64,000 bases of DNA, taken from positions 310,001-374,000 of the forward strand of contig JAGQWX010000001.1 in NCBI GenBank assembly GCA_020436935.1. Direction: 5' to 3'. A model generated the notes under the pieces. It was given only the letters and a program-made list of their open reading frames with translations, did no database searches and was not told the DNA's origin. Position 1 is the first letter of the stretch, and each line of letters starts with the position of its first letter. Both the position numbers and the translations under genes were made by a program. This document shows, in pieces, positions 758-45,313 of this stretch. The stretch comes from Saprospiraceae bacterium (GTDB taxonomy: Bacteria > Bacteroidota > Bacteroidia > Chitinophagales > Saprospiraceae).

Positions 758-1165
758 TTAAGCCGGATATTGCACATAATTTCTGGGGGTCTCCCACAGT
801 TTGATGCCCAAATCGTATCGTTCATCGATGTGCTTTCTGAGAATATTGTAGATGACTACTGCCATGTTTTCAGCGGATGGCAGGATATTTTTGAACTCTT
901 CCACCTGAAGATTGAGGTTTTTGTGGTCAAACTTCTTTTCAACATGGGTGCTGACCAGATCCGCCAGCTTTCCAAGATCGTAAACGTATCCGGTATCGGG
1001 ATCTATTTCACCGGTCAGGCGTACTTCGAGCTCATAATTGTGGCCATGGTAGTACTCATTGTTGCACAAGCCAAATACCTCTGCATTCTTTTCTGCAGAC
1101 CAGGCAGGATTGTGTAATCTGTGCGCAGCATTGAAATGAGCCATGCGAAAAACGGATACCTTCAT
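758..1165 (-). CDS. 6-pyruvoyl-tetrahydropterin synthase / QueD family protein
   Basis: A 135-residue one-domain T-fold enzyme. Zinc ligands His15 (FNAAHRL), His40 and His42 (HGHNYE) and the catalytic Cys34 (GLCNNEYYHGH) are present, as are the Asp80-His81 pair and Glu126 (WETPRN). PSAEN (97-101) is closer to classical pyruvoyl-tetrahydropterin synthases than to many QueD proteins. It acts on 7,8-dihydroneopterin triphosphate, either toward queuosine (6-carboxytetrahydropterin) or toward a pterin; the sequence does not decide which. folE and tgt in the same window are compatible with the queuosine role. The start at 1165 removes an upstream extension that does not look coding. A TACTTTTG -7 element lies at 1238-1245. 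Confidence 0.88.
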   Translation of the reverse strand: MKVSVFRMAHFNAAHRLHNPAWSAEKNAEVFGLCNNEYYHGHNYELEVRLTGEIDPDTGYVYDLGKLADLVSTHVEKKFDHKNLNLQVEEFKNILPSAENMAVVIYNILRKHIDERYDLGIKLWETPRNYVQYPA

Positions 1166-1237
1166 CGGTTTTAAAATTCTTCTTTTTAGTGAATACTTGT
1201 CGGAAAAAGGACAATCCATTTTCCGCCGAGTATAATA

Positions 1238-1245
1238 CAAAAGTA
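1238..1245 (-). promoter_or_regulatory. Bacteroidota-type -7 element for the pterin synthase/methylase pair
   Basis: Minus-strand TACTTTTG matches the consensus TAnnTTTG and lies 73 nt upstream of the ATG at 1165. I see no TTG at the expected -33 spacing, so the call rests on the -7 box alone. Confidence 0.4.
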
Positions 1246-1433
1246 ACCCATTAATGTCCAAATGGTTTCTATTGAACAGTGCTTTTATTGCATCTTGAGG
1301 TATTGACGGACTCGTAATCGGATAAAATGCATGAAGCTGCTTGGCATAACAATCATTAAAAGAGTAGAATTTCTTTCTAATTTACACCAAAGCCTTCGCT
1401 CCGTCGTTTTAATTTTATCAAATTCTCCTAACG

Positions 1434-20876: not shown

Positions 20877-21728
20877 ATGAGCACAAATGAACAACACTAC
20901 AACTACGAGCGGATCGAGAAGGCCATCTGGTTCATGTACAACAATGCACAAAAACAGCCAACGCTTGAAGATGTGGCTGCGCACGTACACCTGAGCCCCT
21001 TCCACTTTCAAAGAATTTTTACGGAATGGGCAGGTACAAGTCCCAAAAAGTTTCTTCAATACCTCAATGTGTCTCACGCCAAACACTTGTTGAGAAGCTT
21101 TGACAAATCCTTGTTTGAAACGAGCGAAGCCATTGGCCTTTCCGGTACTTCAAGATTGCACGATTTATTCGTATCCATTGAAGCCATGACGCCCGGTGAG
21201 TACAAAAACGGTGGTGTCGGACTGACCATCAATTACCAATTTTATCCAAGTCGCTTTGGCGAAATAATGATTGCCAATACGCCAAAGGGCATCTGCAAGG
21301 TAAGTTTTTGTGAAGGCCGGGAAGAATCACTGAAGGATTTGAAAAAAGAATATTTCAATGCAGACTTGTATTTGAAAGCAGAAGAGAGTCATCAGGAAGT
21401 CCTTCGCTTTTTTGAAGACACTTCTTCTGGTGATGGCAATATAAAACTCCATTTAAAGGGAACAGATTTCCAGTTGCAGGTGTGGCAAATGCTTTTGAAA
21501 ATTCCCGGCGGCCAGGTCTGTTCTTACGGCGATGTATCGAATGCCCTGGGCAAACCCACGGCGCAGAGAGCAGTAGGAAGCGCTATCGGTCAAAATCCTG
21601 TAGCCTTCCTCATCCCATGCCACCGCGTGATACAATCTACCGGCAAGATGGGTGGGTACATGTGGGGTCTTCCCAAAAAAACAAGCATCCTGGCCTGGGA
21701 GTCAGGATTCAACCAAAAAGCTGTATAG
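20877..21728 (+). CDS. Ada-like fusion: AraC HTH plus methylated-DNA-protein cysteine methyltransferase
   Basis: A 283-residue two-domain protein. Residues about 7-105 are an AraC helix-turn-helix pair (LEDVAAHVHLSPFHFQRIF and the second helix set). Residues about 115-283 are an O6-alkylguanine-DNA alkyltransferase with the acceptor Cys248 in PCHRVI and FQLQVWQMLLKIPGGQVCSYG. The N-terminal Ada zinc domain that senses methylphosphotriesters is missing, so activation cannot follow the E. coli Ada mechanism exactly. It should repair O6-methylguanine by suicidal transfer and may regulate its own gene. A gene 34 nt downstream may be co-transcribed. Confidence 0.94.
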   Translation: MSTNEQHYNYERIEKAIWFMYNNAQKQPTLEDVAAHVHLSPFHFQRIFTEWAGTSPKKFLQYLNVSHAKHLLRSFDKSLFETSEAIGLSGTSRLHDLFVSIEAMTPGEYKNGGVGLTINYQFYPSRFGEIMIANTPKGICKVSFCEGREESLKDLKKEYFNADLYLKAEESHQEVLRFFEDTSSGDGNIKLHLKGTDFQLQVWQMLLKIPGGQVCSYGDVSNALGKPTAQRAVGSAIGQNPVAFLIPCHRVIQSTGKMGGYMWGLPKKTSILAWESGFNQKAV

Positions 21729-21762
21729 AAGTCCTATCTTCACGACATCATTTGGTGGTGTT

Positions 21763-22758
21763 ATGAAATACAAAAGACTGGTGGTATTTTCCGGAAAGAT
21801 TGGATACGATGTATCTGGAGGAAGCGACGCTACCATGTATATCACCGCACATCTTGAAGACTGGCTGAAAATAGAATTTGTTTGTTTTGAGTTGTTTGAC
21901 ATGCGCGGTCGAGCCAATGAAGTAACGATGGTTGTGTCTCTGGATGAGCTTAGGTCTTTACTTGAAGCAAAAAATGATGGCCAAACCCTGTTTTATGGCG
22001 ACTTCAGGGACGCTGTTGTTCTTTCTGAACTTCGTTTGCCGTACATTTTTTCTTACCACGACAATTGGCCAGGTGCAGGCATTGTACCCGGTACTGCCAC
22101 AGATGCAAAAGAGGAAGCCATTGCCACCTATGCTGAGATCTTCAGAAATGCTTTGTATGTGTTTGCTGTTTCTGAACACAGTCTTCAATTCATCGAAAAA
22201 TATACCGCAAACGTCAAAGTGGTGCGCAACGGCTTCACCAAACGTGATTATACTTTCCGAAAGACTGCAGGGCTAAATATGCTGATGATTGGAAATGTAG
22301 ACCAAAGAAAATATGGCCTTTTGCCGGCTCTGATGGCTGAATTAAAGAACAACAGGACCGAAGTACAAATTGATGTTTATGGCAATTTGACGGATGATTT
22401 TCTGGCCACTTCGCTGAAAACATTTGAACAGATTGACCTCATAGGTTTCCGAAGATCCATTGATTTGTCAGGCTACTCTGCACTTCTTTGCGTTTCCTAT
22501 ATGGAGAATCTACCCATATCCATAGTGGAGGCTGTTGACGCAGGACTTCCGGTAATTGCTTTTGATGTAGGAGGAATTTCTGAAATCATCGATGAAGAAG
22601 CGGGTTTTTTGATTTCTCCCTACGATGTGAAAACCATGGCCCATGCCATCGCATCGCTTGTAGATTTTGGGTTATCCGGCATTCCGAGGGATTTAAGTGG
22701 TGTTTATAATTGGAAACTAGCAGCAGAGGGTATATTTTTAACCATCAAACATTTATGA
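21763..22758 (+). CDS. GT4-like glycosyltransferase
   Basis: A 331-residue GT-B fold protein. The C-terminal half has the nucleotide-sugar motif ENLPISIVEAVDAGLPVIAFDVGGISEII in its expected place (EN.P...EA...G.PVIA.D.GG..E). The N-terminal half is degenerate but keeps VSGGSDATMYITAHL, resembling a GGxE loop. It is shorter than most GT4 enzymes (about 370-400). ATG 21763 is the first start clear of the upstream gene. It overlaps the nitrilase-family gene by 4 nt (ATGA). Donor and acceptor are unknown; no other polysaccharide genes are adjacent. Confidence 0.85.
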   Translation: MKYKRLVVFSGKIGYDVSGGSDATMYITAHLEDWLKIEFVCFELFDMRGRANEVTMVVSLDELRSLLEAKNDGQTLFYGDFRDAVVLSELRLPYIFSYHDNWPGAGIVPGTATDAKEEAIATYAEIFRNALYVFAVSEHSLQFIEKYTANVKVVRNGFTKRDYTFRKTAGLNMLMIGNVDQRKYGLLPALMAELKNNRTEVQIDVYGNLTDDFLATSLKTFEQIDLIGFRRSIDLSGYSALLCVSYMENLPISIVEAVDAGLPVIAFDVGGISEIIDEEAGFLISPYDVKTMAHAIASLVDFGLSGIPRDLSGVYNWKLAAEGIFLTIKHL

Positions 22759-41449: not shown

Positions 41450-42007
41450 ATGAGCCTGACAGAATTACTTGGTTTTTTATTCGCCCTTGGTGGCATTCTC
41501 CTTGCCATCAAACAAATCAAATGGAATTGGATATCCAATATCATCAGCAGCTTGTTCTATCTCTTCGCTTTCTATGAAATTCAACTCTACGCAGATGCTG
41601 GATTACAGATCCTCTTTATTGTCATGAGCATCCTCGGCTTTATCAATTGGAACAATCCAAAATATGCCTCATTAGAAGCAGTTTCCAGACTGAACAGAAA
41701 GGAAATATTAAATTATTCGGTCGGTTTTATAATTACTGCTGTTGTCATCATCACCATTAATTACACATATACCAATTCCGATGTACCCTTTTGGGACGGA
41801 GGCCTCACTGCAGCTTCCGTCATAACTACCTTTATGGCGATCAAAAAGAAAATAGAAAGCTGGCTGGTGTGGATGCTCATTGATGCCTTGTACATACCAC
41901 TTTACTTGTACAAGTCCTATATATTGTCATCTATATTGTATGCATTATACATCATCCTGGCTTATCTGGCATATAGAGAATGGAAAAAACACCTGTTACA
42001 CGCATAG
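41450..42007 (+). CDS. pnuC: Nicotinamide riboside/mononucleotide transporter PnuC
   Basis: A 185-residue seven-transmembrane transporter. ELLGFLFALGGILLAIKQ, the WNW segment, GFINWNNP and WLVWMLIDALYIPLYLYKS are family signatures. It imports nicotinamide riboside by facilitated diffusion, trapped by phosphorylation. The next gene, a NadR-type kinase, overlaps it by 28 nt, which is the expected functional partner. Confidence 0.94.
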   Translation: MSLTELLGFLFALGGILLAIKQIKWNWISNIISSLFYLFAFYEIQLYADAGLQILFIVMSILGFINWNNPKYASLEAVSRLNRKEILNYSVGFIITAVVIITINYTYTNSDVPFWDGGLTAASVITTFMAIKKKIESWLVWMLIDALYIPLYLYKSYILSSILYALYIILAYLAYREWKKHLLHA

Positions 42008-42507
42008 CAATACTTGGCGCCGAAAGTAGCGGTAAGAGTACCTTGGCTTCAATGTTGGCCATCACCCTTGATGGTGGACTTGTGAAAGAGTATGCCCGTG
42101 AATATTGCGAAAATCTGGGCCATAAGCCAACTGCAGAAGATGTCATCCATATTGCAGAAGTGCAGATAGCTGAATATTTTGACCCTGGATTTTCCTCCGA
42201 CTTTATAGTGTACGACACTGCCATTCACACCAGCCTTATTTGGTTGGAAGATAAGTTTTCTCATGTGCCGCAATATTTGATGAAAGCCGCAAAAACCATG
42301 GAATTTGACGCCATCTTTGTCTGTGACAGCGATATTCCATGGGAGTATGACCCTTTGAGAGAAGACCCCTACAGAAGGAATGAGCTGGAGGAAAAAACCA
42401 AAAAATTACTTATTACTCTGGGTAAAGATTTTCATTTCATCACAGGTGACGTTGCTACCAGACTCAAAAACGCGCTTTACGCGCTCAAAAAACTTTCCCT
42501 CATTTGA
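41980..42507 (+). CDS. NadR-type nicotinamide riboside kinase domain protein
   Basis: A 175-residue P-loop kinase with Walker A GAESSGKST (13-21), KEYAREYCENLG in place of the lid, and DPLREDPYRRNELEEK near the C-terminus. It corresponds to the C-terminal kinase domain of NadR, lacking the N-terminal adenylyltransferase and repressor domains. Coupled to pnuC, it should phosphorylate imported nicotinamide riboside to NMN. It converges on the acyltransferase gene with an 8-nt overlap. Confidence 0.88.
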   Translation: MEKTPVTRIAILGAESSGKSTLASMLAITLDGGLVKEYAREYCENLGHKPTAEDVIHIAEVQIAEYFDPGFSSDFIVYDTAIHTSLIWLEDKFSHVPQYLMKAAKTMEFDAIFVCDSDIPWEYDPLREDPYRRNELEEKTKKLLITLGKDFHFITGDVATRLKNALYALKKLSLI

Positions 42508-43363
42508 TCAGTTTCCAGCGTTTGTGGGACCATAGCCAGTATGCCGGATGTTTTCTTATGTCTTCTTCCAGCATTCCTGCATACTCATTGGTCACCTCCC
42601 GGCTTTCAACGGGCAAATAATTGATGGAATACCTGCCTTTCCCCAGAGGTTTGATCTGTTGGTAGACTACCGCCATGTCATATTTTTTGCTCAGTTTTTC
42701 AGGTCCGCCAAAAAATGGTGTTTCAATTCCAAAAAAAGAGGCTTCAATGCTACCGTCAATACTTGCCGGACTCTGATCTGAGATCAGCATAAAGGCTCCC
42801 GGTGAAGGGCTTAGCCGGATTTTTTTTATCACTTCAGCCATGGGTGCCAGCTGTACATCAAATCTATTCCTGGCCTCGTACATCACTTTATCCAGGGCTT
42901 TATTGCTCAGTGGTTTATAGACCGCTGTTACAGGATATTTCACCTTTCGTGCCAGCAGAAGCCCTGCCCATTCCCAGTTTCCAAGGTGACTGGCGAGAAT
43001 AATGACGTGTTTGCCGCCGGCAATGGCCTTATCTATATGGTCCAAACCACTGTAGATTACTTTTTTGTCAATACTGTGATAAGGGGCCACCATGCCAAAA
43101 ACAATTTCTGTAAAATATATCGAAAGTTGTTTGTAAAAATTCCGGGTGAGCGCATTGATATCCTGTGCGGCTGTTATACCGGTGATTTCAAAATTGCGGT
43201 GGATTACTTTTTTTCTGTATTTGATGACGTATTGCAATATAAACCGGACAATTGCCGTAAGAACTGGTCCAAATATAACGACCAATAAATAGCCCTTAAA
43301 AATGATGGCCTTCCAAAAGTAATAAGTTAGTTTTTCCTTCACGTCAGCTAACTTAGGACTCAT
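42500..43363 (-). CDS. LpxL/HtrB-type acyltransferase
   Basis: A 287-residue membrane-associated acyltransferase. ILASHLGNWEWAG gives the HxxxxE catalytic motif; later ISDQSPAS and FFGIETPFFGGPEKLSKKY match lipid A late acyltransferases. It normally moves acyl chains to lipid A. The start 43363 overlaps the pterin-synthase homolog by 11 nt, so the two are translated from one message. Its presence at the end of a ribA-dehydrogenase-PTPS unit suggests either incidental placement or an acylated product. Confidence 0.88.
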   Translation of the reverse strand: MSPKLADVKEKLTYYFWKAIIFKGYLLVVIFGPVLTAIVRFILQYVIKYRKKVIHRNFEITGITAAQDINALTRNFYKQLSIYFTEIVFGMVAPYHSIDKKVIYSGLDHIDKAIAGGKHVIILASHLGNWEWAGLLLARKVKYPVTAVYKPLSNKALDKVMYEARNRFDVQLAPMAEVIKKIRLSPSPGAFMLISDQSPASIDGSIEASFFGIETPFFGGPEKLSKKYDMAVVYQQIKPLGKGRYSINYLPVESREVTNEYAGMLEEDIRKHPAYWLWSHKRWKLIK

Positions 43364-43724
43364 AAGATGCCCAGGCAATATGAGATTCTCCCAGAATGAC
43401 CTCAATCTTCCCTTCAAAAAATCCTGAAACCTCCTGCCTTACCTCATCGTGTATATATTTTGCAAGGAACTCTGTGGTGGTCAACAAACCTTTGAATTCT
43501 TCCTTTTCATCCAGGTTTTTGTAGTTGAGTTGAGCACACACTTTTTCAGCTATCTGATGTGCTTGTCCGATATCTATGACCACATTGTGTTCATCGAGAC
43601 TTTCAGATTTAAAAATCACATCTACCACGTAGGTTGCCCCATGCATGTGTTGTGCCGGCCCAAAAAAATCATGAGGCAAAGAATGGGCGATCATGATGTG
43701 TGTTCTTATTCCTACTTTAAACAT
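43353..43724 (-). CDS. PTPS/QueD-family homolog lacking the catalytic Cys
   Basis: A 123-residue T-fold protein. His14 (MIAHSL) and His28/His30 (QHMHGATYVVDV) keep the zinc ligands, but the position occupied by the catalytic Cys in classic QueD/PTPS (C-x3-HGH) is not Cys (FFGPAQHMH). It therefore cannot use the standard mechanism. It differs from the complete paralog at 758-1165. It lies 8 nt after the zinc-type dehydrogenase and overlaps the acyltransferase by 11 nt. Confidence 0.85.
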   Translation of the reverse strand: MFKVGIRTHIMIAHSLPHDFFGPAQHMHGATYVVDVIFKSESLDEHNVVIDIGQAHQIAEKVCAQLNYKNLDEKEEFKGLLTTTEFLAKYIHDEVRQEVSGFFEGKIEVILGESHIAWASYES

Positions 43725-43732
43725 TTATCCTT

Positions 43733-44674
43733 TCATTTTGCGTAATCAAAAACAAATATCGGCTTTCTGACCAAAAGGCCTTGTCTCAGCCGCTCAAAAA
43801 AACCTACAGCATCAGAAAATGGTACCAAATGGATGAGTTCGTCCAGAGCGTCAATTTGCTCAATCAATGAAGCGCAGTACACCTTTCTGCTGTTGAAATC
43901 ATATTCATCCCTTTGGTGCGGGGGAATATGGCTCACCTGACTGGCACGAATGGTGACGCGGTTATAGTGAAAATTTTCTCCAAGACTCAGCTGTACTTCA
44001 GAGGTGCCGTACCACGACAACTCTATCACCCGTCCATCCAAATCTGCGATGTCTATGGCTCTCTGAAGACCAGAAGCCGAGCATGAGGTGTGAAAAACTT
44101 TCTGATACAGACCATTCAATTCAACATTGAATCCCAATTCCTTAAGCAGTTCTTTCCTTTCGGAAACTTGCTCCAAAACATCTGCGTCTATACCATATAT
44201 TTCCCGCACAACCAGAGCCAGCATACAGCCGAGATTGCCTCCACCAATGATGGCCACACGATCTCCTTTGGAGAGTTCGGCATCCCAAATGGCGTTGACC
44301 ACCGTTTCCATATTGCTGATCAAAGCATATCTGGACAATGGAGCATTATTACCAAGTGGAAATAGTGCATCTGAAGGGGCAATAATTTTGCTGGAGTGGG
44401 GATGCATCATGTGGTAGGACTTACCGTCTTTGTCTGAAGCAACACAACTATATCCATAGGCCAAAGGAAAATCAAAGCTTCCCTTCATAAACGGAACCTT
44501 CATCTTTTCCCGAAGTGATGCCGGAACTCTTCCACCTGCTACCAGACGTTCTGTGCCTGTACTGATCATGGAAAATTGTGTCTCTAACAAGCTACCCTTA
44601 TCTGTTGCAAATTTTTCACTGATCAGCTGTGAGCTGAATGGGTCGATGTGCCACAGTGTTTGAGCAGTGAGCAT
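43733..44674 (-). CDS. Zinc-type medium-chain dehydrogenase homolog
   Basis: A 313-residue MDR-superfamily protein. It has an N-terminal GroES-like fold (ISTGTERLVAGGRVPASLREKM, FPLAYGYSCVA) and a Rossmann loop GGGNLGCML near 145. It matches the alcohol-dehydrogenase-like proteins that I recall occurring next to PTPS homologs in alphaproteobacteria. The typical catalytic-zinc Cys/His/Cys set is incomplete (no GHE motif), so hydride transfer may be zinc-independent. It starts 39 nt after ribA. Confidence 0.85.
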   Translation of the reverse strand: MLTAQTLWHIDPFSSQLISEKFATDKGSLLETQFSMISTGTERLVAGGRVPASLREKMKVPFMKGSFDFPLAYGYSCVASDKDGKSYHMMHPHSSKIIAPSDALFPLGNNAPLSRYALISNMETVVNAIWDAELSKGDRVAIIGGGNLGCMLALVVREIYGIDADVLEQVSERKELLKELGFNVELNGLYQKVFHTSCSASGLQRAIDIADLDGRVIELSWYGTSEVQLSLGENFHYNRVTIRASQVSHIPPHQRDEYDFNSRKVYCASLIEQIDALDELIHLVPFSDAVGFFERLRQGLLVRKPIFVFDYAK

Positions 44675-44713
44675 AGGTGATTTTTGATCTTCCTAAAATA
44701 CAATAAAAGGAGG

Positions 44714-45313
44714 TCAGATGTCCAGAAAGTGACCAAAAACGTCCTTTTTGGTTTTGAGATAGCCTTCATTTTCCTTTTTGGCTTTCACCACGACGGGAAT
44801 ACGTTGATCGACAACGATTCCACTTCCTTCAAAAGCAGATATTTTGTCCGGGTTATTGGTCAACAAATTGATCCTGGTGACACCGAGGTCTTTCAAAATA
44901 GTGATGGCATCGCTATAACTGCGTTCGTCGATTTTAAAACCCAAGGCAATATTGGCTTCGGCAGTATCCATACCCAGGTCTTGTTTTTCGTAAGCATGCA
45001 GTTTGTTGATGATGCCAATGCCTCTTCCTTCTTGCCTGAGATAGATCACCACACCTCCGTTTTTGGCTATATAATCCATACTAATGGACAGCTGCTCTCC
45101 ACACTCACATCTGTTGGATTTGAAAATATCTCCCGTAATACACTCTGAGTGCACCCTTACATTTATTGTCTTTTCAAAATCAAGTGGATCCCTGAGAAGT
45201 GCAAAATGAGGCATTCTGTCTTCAGCCTCCGAAGAATATGCTTTCATAATAAAAGGACCCCAGTCAGTTGGAATTACTGCTTCGCCCTGAATTTTTAATG
45301 CCGGTTCGGTCAT
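44714..45313 (-). CDS. ribA: GTP cyclohydrolase II (stand-alone RibA)
   Basis: A 199-residue enzyme opening GTP to 2,5-diamino-6-ribosylamino-4(3H)-pyrimidinone 5'-phosphate. Zinc ligands Cys58, Cys69 and Cys71 (SECITGDIFKSNRCECG) and the catalytic RQEGRGIG (93-100) are intact, as is LLTNNPDK. Many Bacteroidota carry RibA fused to RibB; here it stands alone, without other rib genes but with a PTPS homolog and a dehydrogenase downstream. It may thus feed riboflavin synthesis, or the neighbouring genes' product. Confidence 0.95.
   Translation of the reverse strand: MTEPALKIQGEAVIPTDWGPFIMKAYSSEAEDRMPHFALLRDPLDFEKTINVRVHSECITGDIFKSNRCECGEQLSISMDYIAKNGGVVIYLRQEGRGIGIINKLHAYEKQDLGMDTAEANIALGFKIDERSYSDAITILKDLGVTRINLLTNNPDKISAFEGSGIVVDQRIPVVVKAKKENEGYLKTKKDVFGHFLDI

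Follow-up and report, generated by a model that had tools for sequence, protein, structure and literature searches.

A stretch of 64,000 nt from a Saprospiraceae bacterium of the Bacteroidota (GCA_020436935.1, contig JAGQWX010000001.1, positions 310,001 to 374,000; hereafter the window) contains a tight minus-strand unit of genes for a GTP cyclohydrolase II (RibA), a dehydrogenase, and a PTPS homolog without the catalytic Cys, separated by gaps of 39 and 8 nt:

44714-45313, minus strand: ribA, stand-alone GTP cyclohydrolase II, the module copy (199 aa); predicted to convert GTP to 2,5-diamino-6-ribosylamino-4(3H)-pyrimidinone 5′-phosphate (DARP)
43733-44674, minus strand: MDR-fold dehydrogenase without Zn ligands (313 aa)
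43353-43724, minus strand: PTPS-IV of the FGPAQ..HGAT type, T-fold (123 aa)

This unit is real, conserved, and functionally coherent, and belongs to the published PTPS-IV subfamily; within it, PTPS-IV and the dehydrogenase appear to be obligate partners. On balance we lean toward reading it as a reduced Bacteroidota version of a PTPS-IV pathway, from GTP through DARP to a (ribityl) 2-amino-pyrimidinone or pterin, with PTPS-IV and the dehydrogenase as its core pair.

A conserved dehydrogenase and PTPS-IV pair

Among 385 alphaproteobacterial genomes sampled, 45 encode both proteins, none encodes just one, and 340 encode neither (Fisher p 8e-60, uncorrected for phylogeny). PTPS-IV is rarer in the other two samples (10 of 396 actinomycete and 2 of 395 Bacteroidota genomes; the sampling-centre genome is counted in each of the three). 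The dehydrogenase gene lies directly upstream of PTPS-IV in 86 of 97 loci, with a median gap of 13.5 nt, and a GT4 glycosyltransferase gene directly downstream, also in 86; two of these loci (L029 and L055) are one and the same, many end at contig ends, and the “Solibacter” matches L051 and L052 were excluded as ordinary CxxxHGH-type proteins. This adjacency and co-occurrence (86/97 loci, 45/45 genomes) is more than chance. Both genes are present even where they are not adjacent, on different contigs in two genomes (G465, G502) and divergently placed in a third (G700). Their pairwise distances correlate, exceeding all 2000 permutations, and in both gene trees the window copies group with L024, L026, and L030. 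The window order, RibA-dehydrogenase-PTPS-IV, recurs in L026, L027, and L057. RibA or a RibD_C-type reductase is nearby in 73 of the 97 loci; other neighbors are methyltransferase-like proteins (73), CDP-alcohol phosphotransferases (32), and creatininases (15).

The first-pass annotation of this DNA, made from the sequence alone, placed such a pair in alphaproteobacterial loci and supposed it to be widespread. It is: the pair occurs in Bacteroidota, Alpha- and Gammaproteobacteria, and Actinomycetota, often near RibA, with annotated examples in Streptomyces fungicidicus, Microbacterium, Methylosinus OB3b, Rhizobium, Agrobacterium, Palleronia, and Thiodictyon. In Methylosinus trichosporium OB3b the module is on pOB3b1. 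That annotation had also named outcomes that would count against it, a pair confined to close relatives, or a genome with no other RibA and a relic PTPS; instead the pair spans phyla, the PTPS is conserved, and there is a second RibA-domain gene.

Several loci depart from the common arrangement. On two Streptomyces plasmids PTPS-IV stands alone (L074:9001-9399 and L075:9001-9426): no gene for a dehydrogenase, a GT4, or a RibA lies within about 9 kb of it. In L031, a record titled uncultured Thalassobius, PTPS-IV and dehydrogenase both fall inside the Bacteroidota clade, probably reflecting a misbinned contig, or else transfer. Among 63 alphaproteobacterial loci, an MdoH-type membrane glucosyltransferase gene adjoins the pair in 21, mostly divergently (e.g., L069:6079-7881), and a cytochrome b561 gene in 18.

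The PTPS-IV protein

The window PTPS matches PF01242 (E 1.1e-23) and carries the FGPAQ signature (FFGPAQHMHGAT, residues 20-31). In 42 PTPS-IV homologs from Bacteroidota, Alphaproteobacteria, and Actinomycetota, F21, G22, and A24 are invariant and P23 and Q25 at least 90% conserved. In all, 18 positions are invariant across the three phyla, which indicates a constrained subfamily and rules out a relic. As first described, the protein lacks the catalytic Cys; set against E. coli QueD, it is also missing the third Zn His (HGA for HGH) and the triad His that would pair with Asp, but retains two Zn His, the Asp, the pterin-anchoring Glu (E113), and the TTE motif.

It fits none of the other PTPS classes. 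The QueD (PTPS-I) motif CxxxHGH is missing, with A24 in place of Cys and HGA at the end, and the TIGR03367 score is 45.2 bits against a cut-off of 89.25; the PTPS-II motif CxxxxxHGH is absent here and present in the genome's two other PTPS genes; and where PTPS-III has ExxHGH, the window protein reads AQHMHGA. Since assignment to PTPS-IV rests on the FGPAQ signature, it stands without a RibD_C neighbor.

The best match among solved structures is 3d7j, SCO6650 of Streptomyces coelicolor, released in 2008 (E 5e-34, 50% identity, TM 0.94). SCO6650 reportedly contains no Zn, lacks the triad, and shows no PTPS activity, while keeping a pterin-like binding site. Loss of the Cys, of one Zn ligand, and of the triad His would also suit a non-enzymatic pterin-binding subunit or regulator, with the dehydrogenase alone being catalytic. 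We consider this improbable: the polar residues H14, S15, H28, T31, D51, N70, D72, T84, E85, and E113, invariant in three phyla, resemble a selected active site.

The dehydrogenase

No Pfam model matches the window dehydrogenase at E<=1e-3, and its best NCBIfam relative, BchC, is distant (TIGR01202, 26.2 bits against a cut-off of 291.25). Its AlphaFold model (pLDDT 96.6; the sequence rows were window and genome loci only) has the fold of MDR alcohol/polyol dehydrogenases, with Z of 26-29 in a fold comparison; BchC is not among the chains listed there, which has no bearing either way. The Zn-ligand motifs CGxD and GHE are replaced by S-x-GTE/GSE and YGY in 16 of 16 aligned homologs, so the public “zinc-binding” annotation is unsupported. 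The original description of a “zinc-type” dehydrogenase thus holds for the fold and fails for the zinc ligands. The nucleotide-binding GxGxxG is kept, with G144, G146, and G149 invariant.

RibA and the likely substrate

The window RibA has the marks of a GTP cyclohydrolase II: it matches PF00925 (GTP_cyclohydro2, E 3.6e-56), scores above the TIGR00505 cut-off (212.7 bits against 205.85), and keeps the Zn ligands Cys54/65/67 as well as Tyr105 and Arg128 (E. coli numbering). It is not the only copy. The first-pass annotation had asked about a RibBA fusion; the source genome does have a second RibA-domain gene, a 381-aa frame that by its size may be RibBA.

Module RibA proteins generally keep the catalytic residues, the exceptions being seven actinomycete copies, one of them from a named Streptomyces, with Tyr105 changed to Met. 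All seven have a creatininase/formamidase-type neighbor, as against 5 of 35 Tyr copies, a link suggesting that what the pathway requires is DARP, from which the formyl group has been removed. The Streptomyces Met-for-Tyr enzyme SCO6655 reportedly releases a formylated intermediate. The gene order PTPS-GT4-methyltransferase-flippase-creatininase-ribA is found in L068 and L196-L202, and the locus numbers SCO6650 and SCO6655 agree with it. The creatininase neighbor in L068 is a weak match, below cut-off, to the ArfB deformylase model, and BrbF, a creatininase-family protein, is a proven formamidase on this RibA-derived formylated intermediate (PMC9478397). In two further loci with a creatininase gene near (L168, L172), the module RibA has QEGCGIG where others have QEGRGIG, possibly another GTP cyclohydrolase variant.

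No deaminase domain was found in those module RibD_C proteins scanned, and one of them matches the archaeal DARP reductase model TIGR01508, below its cut-off. Taken together, intact or Met-type RibA, creatininase, and deaminase-less RibD_C point to DARP or 2-amino ribityl-DARP as the substrate of the dehydrogenase and PTPS-IV. The first-pass suggestion of a shared GTP-derived metabolite is better supported than before, yet still an inference.

One alternative is that ribA is an auxiliary riboflavin supply gene, co-located with a PTPS-IV and dehydrogenase that act on some other substrate. The window RibA is after all canonical, RibA is nearby in fewer than half of PTPS-IV loci, and Sinorhizobium is known to make secreted flavin through dedicated branches (PMC9478397). 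We nevertheless think it rather unlikely. The window and 16 module loci gave no Rfam match of any kind; they therefore lack the FMN (flavin mononucleotide) riboswitch that would mark a riboflavin operon. Neither ribE nor ribH is listed in any annotated module locus. Deaminase-less RibD_C, and creatininase beside Met-type RibA, point rather to a shared early branch, and occurrence of PF00925 and PF01872 beside PTPS-IV has been reported independently (PMC5445326).

A role in a deazaflavin (F420-like) pathway seems much less probable still. Ribityl-pyrimidine intermediates do feed F420 as well, and PTPS-IV has been stated to act in F420 synthesis, citing unpublished data (PMC5041015). However, no F420 biosynthesis genes are among the listed Bacteroidota and alphaproteobacterial module genes, although no genome-wide F420 search was made. 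The FO synthesis substrate is a deaminated diaminouracil, unlike the 2-amino compound that the module seems to keep.

A possible pathway

From the families, residues, linkage, and co-occurrence observed, we infer a substrate, an order of reactions, and a product as follows. RibA would open GTP to give DARP. The next step at most other loci would be reduction of the ribose to ribityl by a RibD_C-type enzyme; as this reductase has no deaminase domain, the 2-amino group should be kept. The corresponding enzyme in the window genome may be encoded elsewhere or be absent. PTPS-IV and the zinc-less NAD(P)-type dehydrogenase would act as an obligate pair on the DARP-derived substrate, the dehydrogenase oxidizing or reducing a side-chain carbon and PTPS-IV, its retained Glu anchoring the 2-amino-4-oxo-pyrimidine or pterin, carrying out an acid/base isomerization, cyclization, or cleavage other than the PTPS/QueD reaction. 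In other loci the product would then usually be glycosylated (by GT4) and probably methylated. The acyltransferase encoded next to the window unit would have no part in this.

More tentatively, and with somewhat less than even confidence, this could be an undescribed pathway present in at least three phyla, making from GTP a new redox-active compound, a pterin or 2-amino-pyrimidinone that is glycosylated and may be associated with the membrane, by a PTPS-IV/dehydrogenase reaction new to the PTPS superfamily.

A number of observations weigh against a DARP-based pathway. The window unit has no adjacent GT4, methyltransferase, or RibD_C gene: the sole GT4-like frame of the window is a weak match 20 kb off (21631-22755), and a RibD_C profile search of all 64 kb found nothing. 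The RibD_C matches of the source genome all fall outside contig C93; the best candidate for a module-type protein elsewhere, a C158 frame, has the size of RibD (355 aa) and just 29% identity, so that no dedicated copy was found. In its gene tree the window dehydrogenase has the second longest branch, and it reads PHS at a motif that is PHQ in nearly all other copies; this copy, in a genome without the adjacent glycosyltransferase, may be diverging. Across the 97 loci, RibD_C is not universal (59), and RibA is within the fetched stretch in only 43. The link between Met-type RibA and creatininase may rest on one lineage. Finally, PTPS-IV-positive Alphaproteobacteria show a modest excess of genomes with at least two RibA domains (34/37 against 14/21, p 0.03, genomes below 2.8 Mb excluded).

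Neighboring genes

Open reading frames and Pfam matches agree with the four-gene minus-strand unit first described, in which an acyltransferase gene follows that for PTPS-IV and overlaps it by 11 nt when translation is taken to start at the internal ATG, 43363. Other features of interest are:

42500-43363 (longest frame 42500-43417), minus strand: LpxL-type (HxxxxE) acyltransferase, PF03279
45363-46244, minus strand: dapA (PF00701, 4e-74), 49 nt upstream of ribA
758-1261, minus strand: second PTPS gene of the window, CxxxxxHGH type
41450-42507, plus strand: small gene pair for a PnuC-type transporter of nicotinamide mononucleotide or ribosides and a NadR-like kinase, converging on the acyltransferase gene

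The acyltransferase (PF03279 Lip_A_acyltrans, 4.6e-28, 98.7 bits; HX4D/E motif as SHLGNWE) scores below every NCBIfam equivalog cut-off. It is the sole LpxL homolog of the source genome; homologs are found in 18 of 19 relatives, mostly in genomes without PTPS-IV, and none is beside ribA, dehydrogenase, or PTPS genes in the fetched flanks. It is therefore best read as probably a housekeeping copy, a predicted lipid gene incidental to the module, as had been suspected, and was rejected as a pathway step. The dapA gene is a neighbor outside the module and a possible source of read-through; a promoter and terminator scan gave no more sites than shuffled sequence. The second complete PTPS gene had also been noted earlier. 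There are three PTPS genes in the source genome, two of the CxxxxxHGH type, one of these directly before folE.

Comparison with known systems

PTPS-IV was described in 2017 as a COG0720 subfamily (cluster-node 62) with the FGPAQ signature and with PF00925 and PF01872 neighbors, reported as frequent, not universal (PMC5445326). Section 19 of that paper labels PF00925 “GTP cyclohydrolase I / FolE2”; PF00925 is GTP cyclohydrolase II (RibA), and the label may have hidden the riboflavin-type link. With this report and structure 3d7j, the association itself cannot be called undescribed, as it was in the first-pass annotation. Our literature search found no demonstrated function for PTPS-IV, and of papers bearing on a pathway with this gene set, only PMC5445326 and PMC5041015 were relevant. 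What is new, as far as we have found, is the obligate dehydrogenase partner, its zinc-less nature, and the link between Met-type RibA and creatininase in the module.

PTPS-IV proteins are common, and annotation routinely assigns them in error to queuosine or tetrahydropterin metabolism. A single dehydrogenase, matching them exactly at the genome level, supplies their missing partner, and the RibA/formamidase/RibD_C context a likely substrate, so that function becomes directly testable by a two- or three-enzyme assay. The product, if new, would be a GTP-derived metabolite of many soil, marine, and plant-associated bacteria.

The closest known system is PTPS-IV itself, with SCO6650 (3d7j): the window PTPS has the same FGPAQ, 50% identity and TM 0.94 to 3d7j, and RibA as a neighbor. 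The published PTPS-IV text names no dehydrogenase partner, while the window locus has one and lacks RibD_C and glycosyltransferase. QueD (PTPS-I) and PTPS-II share with the window protein the T-fold, the pterin-anchoring Glu, and two of three Zn His; it differs from them in having no catalytic Cys, HGA rather than HGH, and LDE rather than LDH, and in not being beside queC/E/F or folE. Within NCBIfam, BchC, the bacteriochlorophyllide hydroxyethyl dehydrogenase, comes closest to the window dehydrogenase, but there are no photosynthesis genes near the module. The acyltransferase resembles LpxL/HtrB in PF03279, HxxxxE, and single copy, with no linkage to PTPS-IV elsewhere. In implied order of reactions, the module resembles the archaeal (ArfA, ArfB, reductase) and fungal early riboflavin routes, and that of BrbF, from GTP through (formylated) DARP to a ribityl compound without prior deamination; where those continue with later riboflavin genes, none of which was seen here, the module has the dehydrogenase, PTPS-IV, and GT4 instead.

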